From contig JAPOXD010000053.1 in the NCBI GenBank assembly GCA_026707285.1, positions 1 to 64,000 of the forward strand: a stretch of 64,000 nt of DNA. The letters are read 5' to 3'. Shown one piece after another: positions 3,975 to 41,651 of this stretch (position 1 is the stretch's first letter; the number at the start of each line of letters is the position of its first letter). The translations under genes were made by a program, and so were the position numbers. The stretch comes from Chloroflexota bacterium (lineage in GTDB: Bacteria > Chloroflexota > UBA11872). Under the pieces are notes generated by a model, which saw only the letters and a program-made list of their open reading frames with translations, searched no databases and was not told the DNA's origin.

Positions 3975-4041
3975 GGGCTGTGGCTCCACGTATCCGGTAC
4001 CCGCGCGAGCGCCGCGGACCCTGCCCATGGCGTCGGCTGGC

Positions 4042-4132
4042 GACAATATGGCGGCCGCAGGCTTCCATATGTGCGGCTGCCGATAATATGGCCGGTGGTG
4101 CGGCTTTTTAGATGCTGCTAGTGACAATAAGG
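4042..4132. promoter_or_regulatory. Three evenly spaced direct repeats upstream of fic
   Basis: GACAATATGG (4042), GATAATATGG (4082) and GACAATAAGG (4123) are spaced 40 and 41 bp apart. That is close to four helical turns, so all three face the same side of the DNA. This suggests a binding site array for a regulator of the Fic gene that starts at 4209. The start codon of that gene lies within TTTCC-N8-GGAAA (4198-4215). Confidence 0.45.
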
Positions 4133-4208
4133 AGCGGAGATTTCCCCATATATTCTCGAAGTGATAGTATGAGATCGCCACACGATCCTTGTTCCCGTTT
4201 CCGAACAT

Positions 4209-5414
4209 ATGGAAAGCCCCGCCGCCCAAGTCGAGATCTCCGCCTCTGAAGAAACAGCCGCCCGCCAGCGCGCTGGCAGGTATGTTGCGCAGCCGCAGGG
4301 CTACCGGGCGTTCATGCCATCCCCGCTGCCCCCGGAGCCGCCGGTGCGTTTGGATGGGGAGCTCCAGGCCTTGCTCTCCCAGGCCGACCAGGCGCTCGGC
4401 CGCCTCGATGGCTCGATCCAGACGTTGCCCGACCCGGATCTATTCGTGTTCATGTACGTGCGCAAGGAGGCCGTGCTCTCAAGCCAAATCGAGGGCACGC
4501 AGAGCTCTCTGCAAGACGTGCTGGCTGCGGAGGCGCGCATTCGCTCGCCGGGTAGGCCGCGCGACGTCGACGAGGTCATCAACTACGTGACGGCCATGAA
4601 TCACGGGCTGGACCGACTGCAGACGCTGCCGATTTCCGTCCGCTTGGTCCGGGAGATCCATGCCCGGCTGCTTGAAGGCGTCCGTGGGTCCCAGATGCGG
4701 CCCGGCGAGCTGCGCACCAGCCAGAACTGGATCGGCCCTACGGGGTGCACGCTCAGCGAGGCGACGTTCGTTCCGCCGCCGCATCGCGATGTGCCCAGCG
4801 TCTTGGGCGCGCTGGAGAGCTTCATTCACAGCCCCAGCGAGTTACCGGTGCTGATCCAGATTGGATTGATCCACGCGCAATTCGAGACCATCCATCCGTT
4901 TCTCGATGGGAACGGACGCGTCGGCCGGCTGCTCATCACATTCCTGCTATGCCAGCGCGGCATTCTCGGGGAGCCCGTGCTCTACCTCTCGCACTTCTTC
5001 CGGCGGCATCGCAGCGAGTATTACGACCGACTGCAGGCTGTGCGTGACCGCGGCGATTGGGAAGGCTGGCTGGACTTCTTCTTGCGCGGCGTGGTCGCAG
5101 TCAGCAGCGAGGCCGCGGAGACCGTGCGCCGCATCCTCACGCTGCGGGAGGAGCATCGGGCCCGGGTCACGGAGCGCCTGGGTCGGGCCGCCGCCGACGG
5201 CCATCGCGTGCTCGGCCGGCTCTACCGACGGCCGTTCCTCACCGTTGCCGATGTGCCGCCAATTACCGGGACCAACTATCCCGCCGCCAATCGCCTGGTC
5301 GCCCGACTGGTCCGGATAGGGGTGCTGGAGGAAATCACCGAAAGCCGGCGCAACCGCGTGTTCCGCTACGGCCCCTACCTTCAGGCTCTGGAAGGCGTCG
5401 AGACGCCCGACTAG
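4209..5414 (+). CDS. Fic family protein with C-terminal winged helix
   Basis: This 401-aa class II Fic protein likely transfers AMP, or another phosphate-linked group, from a nucleotide onto a hydroxyl of a target protein. A Fic_N region carries the inhibitory-helix motif S-x-x-x-E-G (SSQIEG, Glu95). The Fic core has the complete catalytic motif HPFLDGNGRVGR at 229-240 with His229. A winged-helix-like tail occupies about 330-395. The target is unknown; proteins of this layout often act as self-contained regulators or toxin-like modules. No clear ribosome site precedes ATG 4209, so leaderless translation is possible. The last 4 bp overlap the convergent oxidoreductase gene. Confidence 0.88.
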   Translation: MESPAAQVEISASEETAARQRAGRYVAQPQGYRAFMPSPLPPEPPVRLDGELQALLSQADQALGRLDGSIQTLPDPDLFVFMYVRKEAVLSSQIEGTQSSLQDVLAAEARIRSPGRPRDVDEVINYVTAMNHGLDRLQTLPISVRLVREIHARLLEGVRGSQMRPGELRTSQNWIGPTGCTLSEATFVPPPHRDVPSVLGALESFIHSPSELPVLIQIGLIHAQFETIHPFLDGNGRVGRLLITFLLCQRGILGEPVLYLSHFFRRHRSEYYDRLQAVRDRGDWEGWLDFFLRGVVAVSSEAAETVRRILTLREEHRARVTERLGRAAADGHRVLGRLYRRPFLTVADVPPITGTNYPAANRLVARLVRIGVLEEITESRRNRVFRYGPYLQALEGVETPD

Positions 5415-7651: not shown

Positions 7652-7969
7652 CGCCTGCGAACCAGAACAGGTCTGGTGGGCGTTCGGCGGCCGCCGACCC
7701 GAGATCGGGCGGCTTGATCTAAGGGAATAAGACATCGGGCCAAGGGAATAATCCCTTGACCAATGATGGTCCTTGCTTTATTCTCCCAGGGCAAGGGAGT
7801 AGTCCATTGGTGAAGCCTATGAGATTCCATTTCACCGTGGATGCGCGCGGAATTGATTCCATATCACTTTTTCGGCGTCTTTGCGGGTCCCGCACGCGGA
7901 CCCCTGGCTCCGCCCGCGATTCCTTCGGGGCCGGTCGCATGATCCAGCGCGCTGACGAGGGGTACCCGG
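7652..7969. other. Regulatory spacer before LiaF-like gene 1
   Basis: This spacer of 318 bp carries the promoter and operators described separately (7721-7810). An open frame from ATG 7819 to 7977 could encode 52 residues, overlapping the next start as ATGCATAA. It has no recognisable domain, and I do not call it a gene. The last 60 bp are similar to the sequence just before the second LiaF-like gene. Confidence 0.5.
7721..7810 (+). promoter_or_regulatory. Promoter flanked by CAAGGGA-N4-TCC(C/A)TTG operators
   Basis: Inverted repeats lie at 7742-7759 (CAAGGGA-ATAA-TCCCTTG, perfect arms) and 7793-7810 (CAAGGGA-GTAG-TCCATTG). A half-site AAGGGAATAA is at 7721. A predicted promoter fits between them: -35 TTGACC (7757-7762), 17-bp spacer, -10 TATTCT (7780-7785). 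The first operator overlaps -35 and the second lies just past -10, a layout expected for repression. The same operator occurs before the Fic gene at 34.6 kb. Confidence 0.55.
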
Positions 7970-8773
7970 ATGCATAAGCCGCGCTACCAAATGAGTCAAC
8001 CGCTCTGGCGCAGGCTGCCGGACTCCCCGCATTTCGTGCGAGGCGTATTCGGCATTGCGTTTTTCCTATGGATCATCCTGCGCTCAGTCGGGGTGCTCGA
8101 CGTTTGGGATCTGTTGACGATCATGCTGGTTCTCTTCGGTCTTGCCTCGATCTACGACCTCGGCCGAGCCAACCCGATCGGATGGCTGTCGGTCAGCGCC
8201 GGGATCCTGGTGCAAGTGAGCCAACTGGTCGACTACAGCGGCGGCGTGCAGTTGGGCATCTGGATGGCCTTTGCGATCGTTGCCCTCGGCATCCTGTGGC
8301 AAAGTGGGACCATCCGCACGCGTCGAATCGTGCGCTTGCGGGGGTGGAAAGACAGCCACGTGGATCTCACCGCAGATGGGAGCACGCTGCGCGCCCGGGG
8401 CGACGTCCGGCGGGGCGAGATCACCTGCCGGCTATGCAACCTAGTCGTCGATCTGCGATATGCCGACATCACCCGTCCGCCGGCAATCCTCAATGTGACG
8501 TGCGTCGCAGGCCGGCTGGACTTGGTTGTCCCAACGGGGTGGCGCATCGACCGAAACGTGCGCACCACGTTCTCGCACGGGGTTCACGAAGCGCACCTGG
8601 TTGTGGAGAATGTCGGTTTCGCCGAGAAAACCTGGGTTGCGCCGATGCGGCCGGTCGGAGAGCTCTACAAGAGCTGGCGCGAGGCCCTGGGGCCCGACCC
8701 GGACCCCGGGTTCGTGAACCTGGTGGTGCAAGGGTCGTCGCACCTGGGCCGCATCCGGATTCTCCACGCCTGA
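7970..8773 (+). CDS. LiaF-like membrane protein, copy 1
   Basis: This 267-aa protein has an N-terminal membrane part with about four hydrophobic segments between residues 22 and 110. A soluble beta-rich domain follows (about 125-267) with VTCVAGRLDLVVPTGWRI and a closing SSHLGRIRI. This arrangement resembles LiaF/YvqF-type cell-envelope stress proteins, whose C-terminal domain is a beta-helix sensing or inhibiting a LiaS-type kinase. No kinase gene is nearby, and the family call is by pattern only. It is about 60% identical by eye to the gene at 9191-9994. Expression is probably controlled by the two operators upstream. Confidence 0.6.
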   Translation: MHKPRYQMSQPLWRRLPDSPHFVRGVFGIAFFLWIILRSVGVLDVWDLLTIMLVLFGLASIYDLGRANPIGWLSVSAGILVQVSQLVDYSGGVQLGIWMAFAIVALGILWQSGTIRTRRIVRLRGWKDSHVDLTADGSTLRARGDVRRGEITCRLCNLVVDLRYADITRPPAILNVTCVAGRLDLVVPTGWRIDRNVRTTFSHGVHEAHLVVENVGFAEKTWVAPMRPVGELYKSWREALGPDPDPGFVNLVVQGSSHLGRIRILHA

Positions 8774-9190
8774 CGACCGGCGTTCGCCGTGGCGGCCCGC
8801 TCGTCCATCGGGTTCATTGCGAGCGCCGCCGAGGTAGCCGCCGCCGTCGCGGTAGTTTCCGAGACTGACGGTTGTCCGCTGCGGATCCGAGTGCGCCACC
8901 GCTCACTAGGACCACGAGCGCGTGTCGGTCGAGCGCCTGCATCTGACCGCCGCGCTGTACGACCTTCCGGCGATGGAGTGCCGCGCCGTCGAAGGCTGAT
9001 GTCCACGCCCTAGGTTCGATCGTTCGCGCGGTCTGACGAATTCGGCGCTTTGCTAGGCTCCGAACCGAGGAGCGCTGCATGCACCACACCGGACGTTTGT
9101 CGGGGCACAGGCGCAGGTTGCGGCCTGGCGCGGTGCGCGATTCCTCGAGGACCGGCCGCGCACTTCCGCTCGCTTCGAGGGGTCGTCGAA
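8774..9190. other. Spacer between the LiaF-like paralogues
   Basis: There is no intact gene. The middle (8872-8999) is a decayed copy of the 3' end of the M20 gene. The last stretch resembles the sequence before copy 1 (for instance CGCGATTCCT followed by CCGG and CGC blocks). The operators found before copy 1 are absent. Confidence 0.55.
8872..8999 (+). pseudogene. Duplicated 3' end of the M20 hydrolase gene
   Basis: This stretch matches 7526-7651 closely. For example, GACCACGAGCGCGTGTCGGT occurs in both, and both end in TGA before a LiaF-like gene. It cannot encode a functional hydrolase. It shows that the LiaF-like gene was duplicated together with the tail of its upstream neighbour. Confidence 0.8.
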
Positions 9191-9994
9191 GTGGCTGACC
9201 GGCGCTACATGATGGCCAGGCCGTTCTGGCGCCAGCTGCTGGACTCGCCGCGATTCATGCGAGCGGCCTTTGGGATGGTCCTGTTTCTCTGGATCATCCT
9301 GCGCATGGTCGGGGTCCTCGATGTCTGGGACCTGCTGACGATGATGCTGGTCCTCTTCAGTCTCTCCTGGGCGAATGATCTCGGCCTGCGCAGTCCGGTC
9401 CCATGGCTTGTGATCGGTGCCGGAGTGCTAGTGCAGGTGAGCCATCTCGGCGAGTTCAGCGGCGCCGTGCAGGCGGGCATCTGGCTGGCCTTCGTGATCG
9501 TTGCCGTCGGCGCCCTGTGGCAAAGCGGGGCCATCCGCACGCGCCGCACTGTGCGCCTGCGGGGGTGGAAGGACAGCCATGTGGATCTGACCTACACCGG
9601 GGGCACGCTCCGCGCCAGGGGCGACATCCGGCGGGGCGATATCACCTGTCGTCTTTGTGACGTCACCGTCGATCTGCGCTACGTCGACATCACGCGTCCG
9701 CCGGCGATCCTCGACGTGACGTGCGTCGCGGGCCGGCTGGACCTGGTCGTCCCGGTCTGGTGGCGCATCGGTCAAAACGTCAACACCACGTTTTCCCACC
9801 TGGCGATAGAGGCGCGCCTCGCCGGGGAACACGGCGGGCCCAGGCCCGAAACATGGATTGGACGCATGCGGCCGATCGGCAGCCGCCGGCGCGGTGTCAG
9901 CGGCGGGGACGAGCCGGAGCCGGACGCGGGTTTTGTGAACCTGCTGATCCAGGGGTCCTCGCATCTGGGTCGGGTGCGGATTCGCCACGCCTGA
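9191..9994 (+). CDS. LiaF-like membrane protein, copy 2
   Basis: This protein of 267 aa is a tandem paralogue of the gene at 7970-8773. It has the same layout: hydrophobic segments at about 22-110, the conserved RLRGWKDSHVDLT junction, then a beta-rich C-terminal domain with GRLDLVVPVWWRI and SSHLGRVRIRHA. GTG 9191 is chosen because it aligns residue for residue with the ATG of copy 1. The frame is open further upstream without similarity. The segment before the C-terminal strand is more variable (GSRRRGVSGGDE versus ELYKSWREALG). The operators present before copy 1 are missing here, so the two may be expressed differently. Confidence 0.6.
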   Translation: MADRRYMMARPFWRQLLDSPRFMRAAFGMVLFLWIILRMVGVLDVWDLLTMMLVLFSLSWANDLGLRSPVPWLVIGAGVLVQVSHLGEFSGAVQAGIWLAFVIVAVGALWQSGAIRTRRTVRLRGWKDSHVDLTYTGGTLRARGDIRRGDITCRLCDVTVDLRYVDITRPPAILDVTCVAGRLDLVVPVWWRIGQNVNTTFSHLAIEARLAGEHGGPRPETWIGRMRPIGSRRRGVSGGDEPEPDAGFVNLLIQGSSHLGRVRIRHA

Positions 9995-33465: not shown

Positions 33466-34617
33466 CTAGCCGTCGCTTCCGCCTGAGTCGCGTCGGCGGC
33501 CTCTGCTCCTCTGAGCCTCCGCCCAACCCGACCGCTCGACGGCGGCGATCAGTTGGGCCAAAAGGTCCGGATTCACCGCGTAGCGCGTATTCCGACCTTT
33601 GCCCGATCGCACGGCGGCGCCACAGGACACCATGTGCGTCAGGTCCGCGTAGGCGGTGGATGGGGACGCGCCGATCAGGCGCGCGTACATGGAACTGGAG
33701 ACGGAGCCCGTGTCGATGATGTACGTCAGGCCCAGCGTCTGCCGCTCGTTCAGACGTGTGCCGAACTCTTCCCGCCAGGCGTCCTGACGCCCGTTGAAGA
33801 CCACGATGAAGTGTTCAAGCATCGTCGCGGCCGTGCTCAGAGCGTCGGTGTGAAATGCGGCGAATGGTGTCCCATCGACCTCCGACTGGAAGTCCAGGCC
33901 GTGCGTGTCGCGGAGTGCCTGGTAGTAGCTGTCGCGGTCGCGCCAGATCACCACATTCGGCACCAACATGCCCTCCGCCGACCAACCCGCCTGGTGCAGG
34001 ATCATGTCGGCCAGGAGACGGGCCGTCCGACCGTTTCCCTCCTCGAACGGGTGGATCGAGACCAGTCCGGCGTGCGCCAGCGCCGCGATGATCGGCGGGG
34101 GATAGCTTTCCTCGGCCACCCATCGCTGGATGTGGGCTACGAGCTGGTCCATCAGGTCTGGGACCCAAGCCGGCGGGGGCGGGCGGTAGCGGATCTCGCG
34201 CGACTCCGCGTCCTCGATCAGGCTCGGTCCCGTGCGGTACTGCCCACGGCCCCCTGACATCTCCTCCGGCAAGCCCTCGAGGATCAGCGAGTTCATGGCG
34301 CGCAGCAGTCCCTGGTCGATCCGTGCCGTCGGGTCCGCCGCCAGCTGCTCCATCAGCGCATAGGCGCCCCACAGGTTCGTCAGCTCGCGCTCCTCGGGTC
34401 GGACCGGATCGCCCTCGCCCGCGAACAGGACGCGGGCCTCTTCATAGCCGAGGGGGTTGCCCTCCACCTTCGCCGAGGCGAGCGTGCTCAGATAGCGCGC
34501 GCGCTCGCGGAAATAGGGCTCGTAGCCGCCAGGGACCAACGTGCGGACCTCGTAGAGTCGCCGAAACAGAGAATCCGTGTCGATATCGCCGACATCCGCG
34601 GCTAGTGAAAGTTCCAT
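33466..34617 (-). CDS. Fic family protein with C-terminal winged helix (second)
   Basis: This protein of about 383 aa is a class II Fic enzyme, only distantly related to the one at 4209. The inhibitory helix motif is SAKVEG (Ser-x-x-x-Glu-Gly). The catalytic motif is HPFEEGNGRTAR, with the usual Asp after HPF-x replaced by Glu but the key His and GNGR intact. Near the C-terminus a winged helix holds SMYARLIGASPSTAYADLTHMV. ATG 34617 is chosen over GTG 34668, because the latter falls inside the predicted promoter. The winged helix may bind the operator at 34676-34693, giving autoregulation; this is inference. Confidence 0.87.
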   Translation of the reverse strand: MELSLAADVGDIDTDSLFRRLYEVRTLVPGGYEPYFRERARYLSTLASAKVEGNPLGYEEARVLFAGEGDPVRPEERELTNLWGAYALMEQLAADPTARIDQGLLRAMNSLILEGLPEEMSGGRGQYRTGPSLIEDAESREIRYRPPPPAWVPDLMDQLVAHIQRWVAEESYPPPIIAALAHAGLVSIHPFEEGNGRTARLLADMILHQAGWSAEGMLVPNVVIWRDRDSYYQALRDTHGLDFQSEVDGTPFAAFHTDALSTAATMLEHFIVVFNGRQDAWREEFGTRLNERQTLGLTYIIDTGSVSSSMYARLIGASPSTAYADLTHMVSCGAAVRSGKGRNTRYAVNPDLLAQLIAAVERSGWAEAQRSRGRRRDSGGSDG

Positions 34618-34649
34618 ACATGCACCAATACACCACTCCCTTCCGGCCA

Positions 34650-34715
34650 ATGATGATTCGATAGCCACGGTCTGTCAAGGGAATAATCCATTGGTCCAAT
34701 GCGATATTCCATTAG
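34650..34715 (-). promoter_or_regulatory. Fic promoter with CAAGGGA-N4-TCCATTG operator
   Basis: On the minus strand, -35 TTGACA (34678-34673), a 17-bp spacer and -10 CATCAT (34655-34650) precede the Fic start. The inverted repeat CAAGGGA-ATAA-TCCATTG (34676-34693) overlaps -35. Additional half-sites CCAATG and ATTCCATTAG follow up to 34715. The block aligns over about 40 bp with 7791-7835. Confidence 0.55.
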
Positions 34716-40796: not shown

Positions 40797-41651
40797 ATGG
40801 CGATTACGACGGGCGCCTCGATCGGAGACGTCGTCGACACGGTGATCGCTGAAGCGCGCCGGACCCAGTTGCACCGCACGGTCATGGAGCCGCTGGTGCG
40901 CACCTACCGCGTGAGTCGCGGTGCCGGCGACACGCTGGAGATTCCCAAGTTCGGCACGGTCACGGCCGGCGCCCTCACCGAGGGCGTGGATATGACTAAC
41001 CCGCAGACGCTGGCGACCACCAAGGTCACGATCACGCCGGCCGAGGTTGGCGCGCAGATCGTGATCACGGACCGGGCGCTGCGCACCGCCCGCGAGGACA
41101 TGGCGCGCGCCGCCGGCCGCGTGCTCGGCGACGCGGTGGCCAAGAAGCTGGACGCCGACTTGCTGGGGCTGCTCGACGGCTTCGGCACCTCGCTGGGCGC
41201 GGCCGGAGAGTCCATCTCCATGGGTCACTTGCGCGCGGCGGTGTCGCGGCTGCACGCGGCCGCCGAGCCGGCGCCCATGCCCTACTCCGCGGTGCTGCAT
41301 CCCTACCAGGCGCATGACCTGGCGGCGGACCTTGCGCCCGTCGGCACCTATCCGGTGCCCAGCGGCATCTCGCAGACGGTGCTCGAGAACCACTGGGTCG
41401 GTCGCGCCTTCGGGGTCGACCTCTTCCAGGCCGGCAACCTGCCGGTGGATGGCGAAGACGATGCCAAGGGCGGTGTGTTTTCGCGCGAGGCGCTGGTCCT
41501 GGTGATCTTCAAGGACTGGGCCGTGGAGCGCGAGCGCGACGCCTCGCTGCGGGCCTGGGAGCTCAACGTCGTGGCCGACTACGGCTACGCCGAGTACCAG
41601 GACGCCTGGGGCGTGGAGATGTACTTCGACGCCGCGGCGCCCAGCAGCTAG
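40797..41651 (+). CDS. Major capsid protein
   Basis: This 284-aa protein has the features of an HK97-fold coat protein of podovirus-like phages. An N-terminal helix (EARRTQLHRTVMEPLVR) leads into DTLEIPKFGTVTAGALTEG. Then come VTITPAEVGAQIVITDRAL, a spine helix DAVAKKLDADLLGLLDGFG, SAVLHPYQAHDLA, and a final P-domain segment EYQDAWGVEMYFDAAAP. ATG 40797 is set by AAAGGAG 6-7 nt upstream. No scaffold or maturation protease gene is adjacent. Confidence 0.78.
   Translation: MAITTGASIGDVVDTVIAEARRTQLHRTVMEPLVRTYRVSRGAGDTLEIPKFGTVTAGALTEGVDMTNPQTLATTKVTITPAEVGAQIVITDRALRTAREDMARAAGRVLGDAVAKKLDADLLGLLDGFGTSLGAAGESISMGHLRAAVSRLHAAAEPAPMPYSAVLHPYQAHDLAADLAPVGTYPVPSGISQTVLENHWVGRAFGVDLFQAGNLPVDGEDDAKGGVFSREALVLVIFKDWAVERERDASLRAWELNVVADYGYAEYQDAWGVEMYFDAAAPSS

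Follow-up and report, generated by a model that had tools for sequence, protein, structure and literature searches.

The window analysed here, a stretch of 64,000 nucleotides of Chloroflexota DNA, raises the question of why the first of a row of LiaF-like genes (LiaF1) and a fic gene some 27 kb away carry the same operator at their promoters, and which protein acts there. A preliminary description had placed an 18-bp motif twice around a promoter at 7.75 kb and once over the −35 box of fic, and these coordinates were reproduced, with a pattern search of the window returning three exact CAAGGGA-N4-TCC(C/A)TTG sites at 7741–7758, 7792–7809 and 34676–34693. Its count of three exact sites therefore stands, but two weaker sites at fic (op0 and op2) had been overlooked. 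The consensus of the window operators, CAAKGGANTANTCCMTTG, is an 18-bp palindrome with TA at its centre.

Operator layout and distribution

The features of the two control regions, and of the fic gene, are as follows.

7720–7737, forward strand: LiaF1 op0, with one good half-site (TAAGGGA), at the same distance of 21 bp ahead of op1 as its fic counterpart
7741–7758, forward strand: LiaF1 op1, CAAGGGAATAATCCCTTG, with perfectly palindromic 7-bp arms
7756–7784, forward strand: LiaF1 promoter, TTGACC-N17-TATTCT, the −35 box overlapping op1
7792–7809, forward strand: LiaF1 op2, CAAGGGAGTAGTCCATTG, covering the start region
33466–34617, reverse strand: fic, for the class II Fic protein Fic-A, with SAKVEG, HPFEEGNGRTAR and a C-terminal winged helix; the proposed repressor
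33574–33756, reverse strand: winged-helix coding region (residues 288–348), the most conserved stretch among orthologs
34626–34643, reverse strand: fic op2, GAAGGGAGTGGTGTATTG, weak, with 3–4 mismatches
34650–34678, reverse strand: fic promoter, TTGACA-N17-CATCAT, the −35 box overlapping op1
34676–34693, reverse strand: fic op1, CAATGGATTATTCCCTTG
34697–34714, reverse strand: fic op0, TAATGGAATATCGCATTG, with 3 mismatches

Both promoters follow one plan, in which op0 is followed after 21 bp by op1, itself joined to the −35 box, and op2 lies 50–52 bp past op1 at the start region, immediately upstream of the start codon. At each locus the 3′ end of op1 forms the TTG of the −35 hexamer of a sigma-70-like promoter (TTGAC[C/A]-N17-TATTCT/CATCAT), and the 17-bp spacing between −35 and −10 recurs in all 11 promoters compared. 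The outermost site, op0, is weaker than op1, and occurs 21 bp upstream in the genome of the window and in some of its relatives. At fic, a strong op1 is paired with a weak op2, which has 4–5 mismatches in five genomes and is perfect only in the sixth, G004, and the gene may for this reason be under looser control; at LiaF1, op2 is strong in all five genomes that have it. Cross-genome comparison places op1 among the best-conserved 18-bp segments of the fic promoter, and op2 among those of the LiaF1 promoter in five genomes, where its identity is 0.91 as against 0.65 for the spacer.

These comparisons are based on six genomes of a single genus, namely that of the window (G000) and five relatives (G001–G005). 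No further exact site is present in the 3.2 Mb searched of the window's own genome. The preliminary description had allowed that the motif might belong to a mobile repeat scattered away from promoters; when the six genomes were searched with CAAKGGANTANTCCMTTG at 0–1 mismatch, the downstream genes proved to be fic and the first LiaF-like gene and no others, which rules out such a scattered repeat. Sites of this type precede fic in 6/6 genomes of the genus and the LiaF array in 5/6, and no regulon beyond the two promoters is seen in the six congeneric genomes. A reversed control pattern of a simpler motif gave 0 matches at ≤1 mismatch in the same set.

Origin of the LiaF1 control region

The likeness of the two regions had been put at about 40 bp, an underestimate, as the similarity actually spans some 190 bp and takes in the first ~30 codons of fic. 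The alignment of the upstream regions covers 191 bp, from op0 to codon ~31, and scores 45 against a background mean of 11, and the leader peptides encoded ahead of LiaF1 match the Fic N-terminus in 5/5 genomes, with 0 of 1000 shuffles reaching the score; a chance likeness of the two promoters is ruled out by these tests. The start of the leader ORF at 7819, MRFHFTVDARGIDSISLFRRLCGSRTRTPG, matches that of Fic, MELSLAADVGDIDTDSLFRRLYEVRTLVPGG; the start codon of fic is the ATG at 34617. Because the likeness runs so far into the coding sequence, the LiaF promoter can be read as a copied fic 5′ end, and because just 30 of the 383 codons of fic are present ahead of LiaF1, fic was the source. On this sequence evidence, the LiaF1 control region is a duplicate comprising three operators, promoter, ribosome-binding region and ~30 codons; the copying is the cause of the promoter likeness that the earlier reading had missed. 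The copy and its surroundings are arranged as follows.

7819–7977, forward strand: leader ORF of 52 codons, ~30 fic-derived codons fused in frame to the native LiaF leader tail
7970–8773, forward strand: LiaF-like gene 1, with four predicted TM helices and a C-terminal beta domain
8910–8999, forward strand: vestigial 3′ end of an M20-peptidase gene, a mark of tandem duplication
9049–9198, forward strand: native LiaF promoter region and leader, TTTGCTAGG, with the native leader ORF at 9079–9198 (MHHTG...), no operator, and a stop overlapping the LiaF2 start
9191–9994, forward strand: LiaF-like gene 2, 66% identical to gene 1, with the native promoter

The insert lies between an M20-peptidase gene (Pfam) and the tandem LiaF-like array, the members of which are separated by vestiges of the 3′ end of the M20 gene. 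Non-head LiaF genes, as well as the single LiaF gene of G004, have a native upstream region consisting of TTTGCTAGGCTCCGA, a ribosome-binding site and a leader ORF beginning MHHTG; this leader, a conserved upstream ORF of 35–39 codons, stands before every non-head copy, with its stop overlapping the LiaF start by 8 nt. At the head gene, G000, G001 and G005 lack the native region, G003 has it with a mutated leader start (ATG to AGG) and G002 retains it, and the fic-derived operators persist there in all five genomes. Judged from these alignments, the fic-derived copy has supplanted the native promoter at the head of the array. The gene tree resolves three LiaF paralog groups, and the head genes of G000 and G001 fall into a different one from those of G002, G003 and G005, so that whichever paralog is first carries the fic-type promoter. 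G004 has the third group alone, with no fic-type LiaF promoter, and retains the operators before fic; thus the LiaF link is dispensable. Since the paralog groups predate the divergence of the genomes, the fic-type LiaF promoter of G004 was probably lost by deletion. The M20 tree does not settle the branching order, and a DNA tree of Fic and M20 combined is not firm either.

With regard to translation, the last 8 nt of the leader ORF, stop codon included, are also the first of LiaF1 (ATGCATAA). In G000, G001, G003 and G005 the fic-derived codons continue without a frameshift into the native leader tail, and for this reason the same overlapping stop is used in all four. Given this overlap, LiaF1 is probably translated by coupling to the leader with its fic-derived start. 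Within the leader, a 14-nt block, TTTCACCGTGGATG (window 7830–7844), shows no change between the five genomes, even at third codon positions, whilst the rest has diverged. It is conceivable, though very doubtful, that the chimeric peptide, which corresponds to Fic residues 1–30 and the first N-terminal helix, binds Fic as an anti-repressor, in which case the captured 5′ end would bring an operator plus a regulator of its own repressor. In CccR, a Fic repressor from Yersinia pseudotuberculosis, the N-terminal residue N13 is part of the dimer interface needed for DNA binding; the proposed role is weakened, however, by leader codons 11–30, which would form that helix and have diverged more than codons 1–10.

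Other accounts of the shared motif have to be set against this history. An origin of the operator in a mobile repeat, or in two palindromes that arose by chance, is extremely improbable: weak matches with three mismatches do occur elsewhere (for G001, among the matches listed), and one of them, CAAGGGATTAGCCCACGG, is a multi-copy repeat, but the six genomes hold no other site at 0–1 mismatch and the operators keep their positions relative to the −35 box and the start codons. CAAGGGATTAGCCCACGG itself is repeated on at least six contigs of the window's genome (C1, C2, C11, C27, C33 and C60), on one of them near the contig end, and is probably a mobile repeat with no relation to the operator. 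It is also improbable, if less so, that the copy at LiaF1 is no more than a leftover piece of fic, its operators kept through recent descent alone. Common descent would account for the similarity of the promoters, leader codons 11–30 have diverged (identity of 0.66, as against 0.85 in fic), and G004 does without the LiaF arrangement altogether. A passive fragment, though, sits poorly with an op2 that has stayed at 0.91 identity next to a spacer at 0.65, with a native promoter deleted or damaged in 4/5 genomes so that the fic-type promoter is what is left, and with an overlap of leader stop and LiaF start that is retained in 4/5 despite differing indels.

Fic-A as the putative repressor

The protein encoded by fic has the Fic motif HPFx[D/E]GN[G/K]RxxR at residues 189–200 (HPFEEGNGRTAR; Pfam Fic, E=3e-17) and, N-terminal to the Fic core, an inhibitory helix of the form (S/T)xxxE(G/N), as SAKVEG at residues 48–53, of which E52 and G53 are invariant in 20 Fic proteins. 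The C-terminal winged helix noted earlier is borne out by AlphaFold2, which predicts it at residues 291–348, with helices at 291–303, 308–315 and 319–331 and wing strands at 335–338 and 345–348 (pLDDT ~80–94); the Pfam wHTH sequence match of this region is below cut-off. Amongst six orthologs, identity amounts to 97% for residues 288–348, 86–89% for the catalytic part and 72–74% for the ends. The G001 ortholog (L044) reads HPFEEGTGR rather than GNGR, its winged helix being nearly unchanged, and may thus be impaired as an enzyme whilst the proposed repressor is kept. Fic-A orthologs at this level and the operator occur together in 6/6 genomes of the genus, and neither turned up in the genomes searched outside it, the class-wide search covering 41 genomes.

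Taking the above together, we assign a probability of roughly 0.7 to the reading that the LiaF1 control region was copied from the fic 5′ end and that Fic-A represses both promoters by binding of its winged helix to the operators. Under this scheme, Fic-A made from the parent gene would bind the 18-bp palindromes, probably as a dimer; bound to op1, which overlaps the −35 box, and to op2, which covers the transcription start, it would block RNA polymerase, and would thereby repress both fic and LiaF1. The fic-derived start codon would open the chimeric leader ORF, to which translation of LiaF1 would be coupled. The scheme builds on the observed sites, promoter build, duplication, conservation, co-occurrence and fold; binding, repression, the dimer form and translational coupling are what we infer, with the action at op1 and op2 drawn by analogy with CccR. 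Shared control by Fic, as first proposed, has thus gained good comparative support from the 6/6 co-occurrence, the conserved winged helix, the private palindromes and the CccR precedent, the binding itself being putative.

Two further winged-helix Fic genes on the same contig show a comparable arrangement. Fic-C, a second class II protein (Fic_N + Fic) encoded at window 4209–5414, has a promoter at 4025–4172 with 27-bp palindromes, CCATATGTGCGGCTGCCGATAATATGG, in tandem at a pitch of 40–41 bp (7 copies in G004, 6 in G008); at ≤3 mismatches none is found away from the gene in eight genomes, save one outlier in G018, on the same contig and ~1 kb from the gene. Fic-B, the third, lies beyond the window at contig position 71252 (G000 C15:71054-72193; L061, L140), and a 19-bp palindrome, AGTCGTATATAATACGACT, covers the −10 region in most relatives and is present at both Fic-B copies of G018. 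Both palindromes are private, being essentially absent away from their own promoters. Three winged-helix Fic genes with three private palindromes therefore fit autoregulation through the winged helix, and suggest that it is common. Although Fic-C (4209–5414) is encoded closer to LiaF1 than Fic-A, it is unlikely to control that gene, since its own promoter has a different operator.

A rather unlikely alternative, yet the least improbable of those considered, grants functional operators and a real duplication but has the sites bound by another regulator, encoded elsewhere, with the winged helix serving substrate targeting or allosteric control. Such roles have been proposed for the winged helix of CbFic2, which binds DNA without clear sequence specificity (PMC10628234), and a regulon of just two promoters leaves some room for another regulator. 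Nonetheless, the operator is confined to the same few genomes as Fic-A, a distinct palindrome marks the promoter of each of the three winged-helix Fic groups, and CccR offers a precedent for repression by a Fic protein.

Known relatives and significance

Full-length Foldseek matches of the Fic-A model are to SoFic (SO_4266, PDB 3EQX), CbFic2 (PDB 8CIL) and CccR (YPK_0951, PDB 7XUX). With SoFic and CbFic2 the likeness is one of overall fold, a Fic core with a C-terminal winged helix; Fic-A (P0001) scores 36.9 in the NCBIfam SoFic model, far below its cut-off of 550. At the time of PMC10628234 no DNA binding by SoFic had been demonstrated; CbFic2 has histone H3 as a target and binds random DNA (PMC10628234). 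CccR is a class II Fic protein with an N-terminal inhibitory helix, a C-terminal HTH and palindromes near its own −35 and −10; it is a proven autorepressor that requires the dimer and binds these inverted repeats in its own promoter (PMC9755527). Its site is AGATAATCAT-N26-ATGATAATCT, with 10-bp arms 26 bp apart, an arrangement particular to CccR and not known to define a group, whereas Fic-A has two to three compact 18-bp palindromes 21 and 50–52 bp apart, so that the binding geometry of Fic-A must differ. CccR is in addition a type VI secreted effector (PMC9755527), a feature for which nothing in the window speaks, and the text available for CccR reports no captured second promoter such as Fic-A has.

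The putative target gene is related to LiaF of the liaFSR system only distantly. The window proteins share 22–28% identity with family members that match Pfam LiaF-TM, and have the four TM helices and beta domain, but reach no Pfam or NCBIfam cut-off themselves: LiaF-like protein P0002 has no LiaF domain match and L092 matches LiaF-TM at E=0.23, whilst homologs L073–L075 and L086 exceed the LiaF-TM cut-off and fall just below that of LiaF-like_C. No LiaS/LiaR pair was recognised among the annotated neighbours, and a Foldseek search with the LiaF-like model brought no significant match (4QRK came first, at E=0.03). The envelope-stress role is thus a guess from distant homology. Elsewhere in the window, a gene at 40797–41651, downstream of a sulfatase gene, matches Pfam phage capsid families and is possibly a prophage or encapsulin-like gene.

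According to the CccR paper (PMC9755527), class II proteins make up ~80% of Fic proteins, and their roles and control are hardly understood; it describes one of them acting as a specific repressor of itself. Fic-A would be a second, unrelated candidate case, in which the operator is defined, the regulon comprises two promoters and one target is not a fic gene. The locus also documents a form of regulatory rewiring, in which a promoter was copied together with the start of its gene and the native promoter was then lost.
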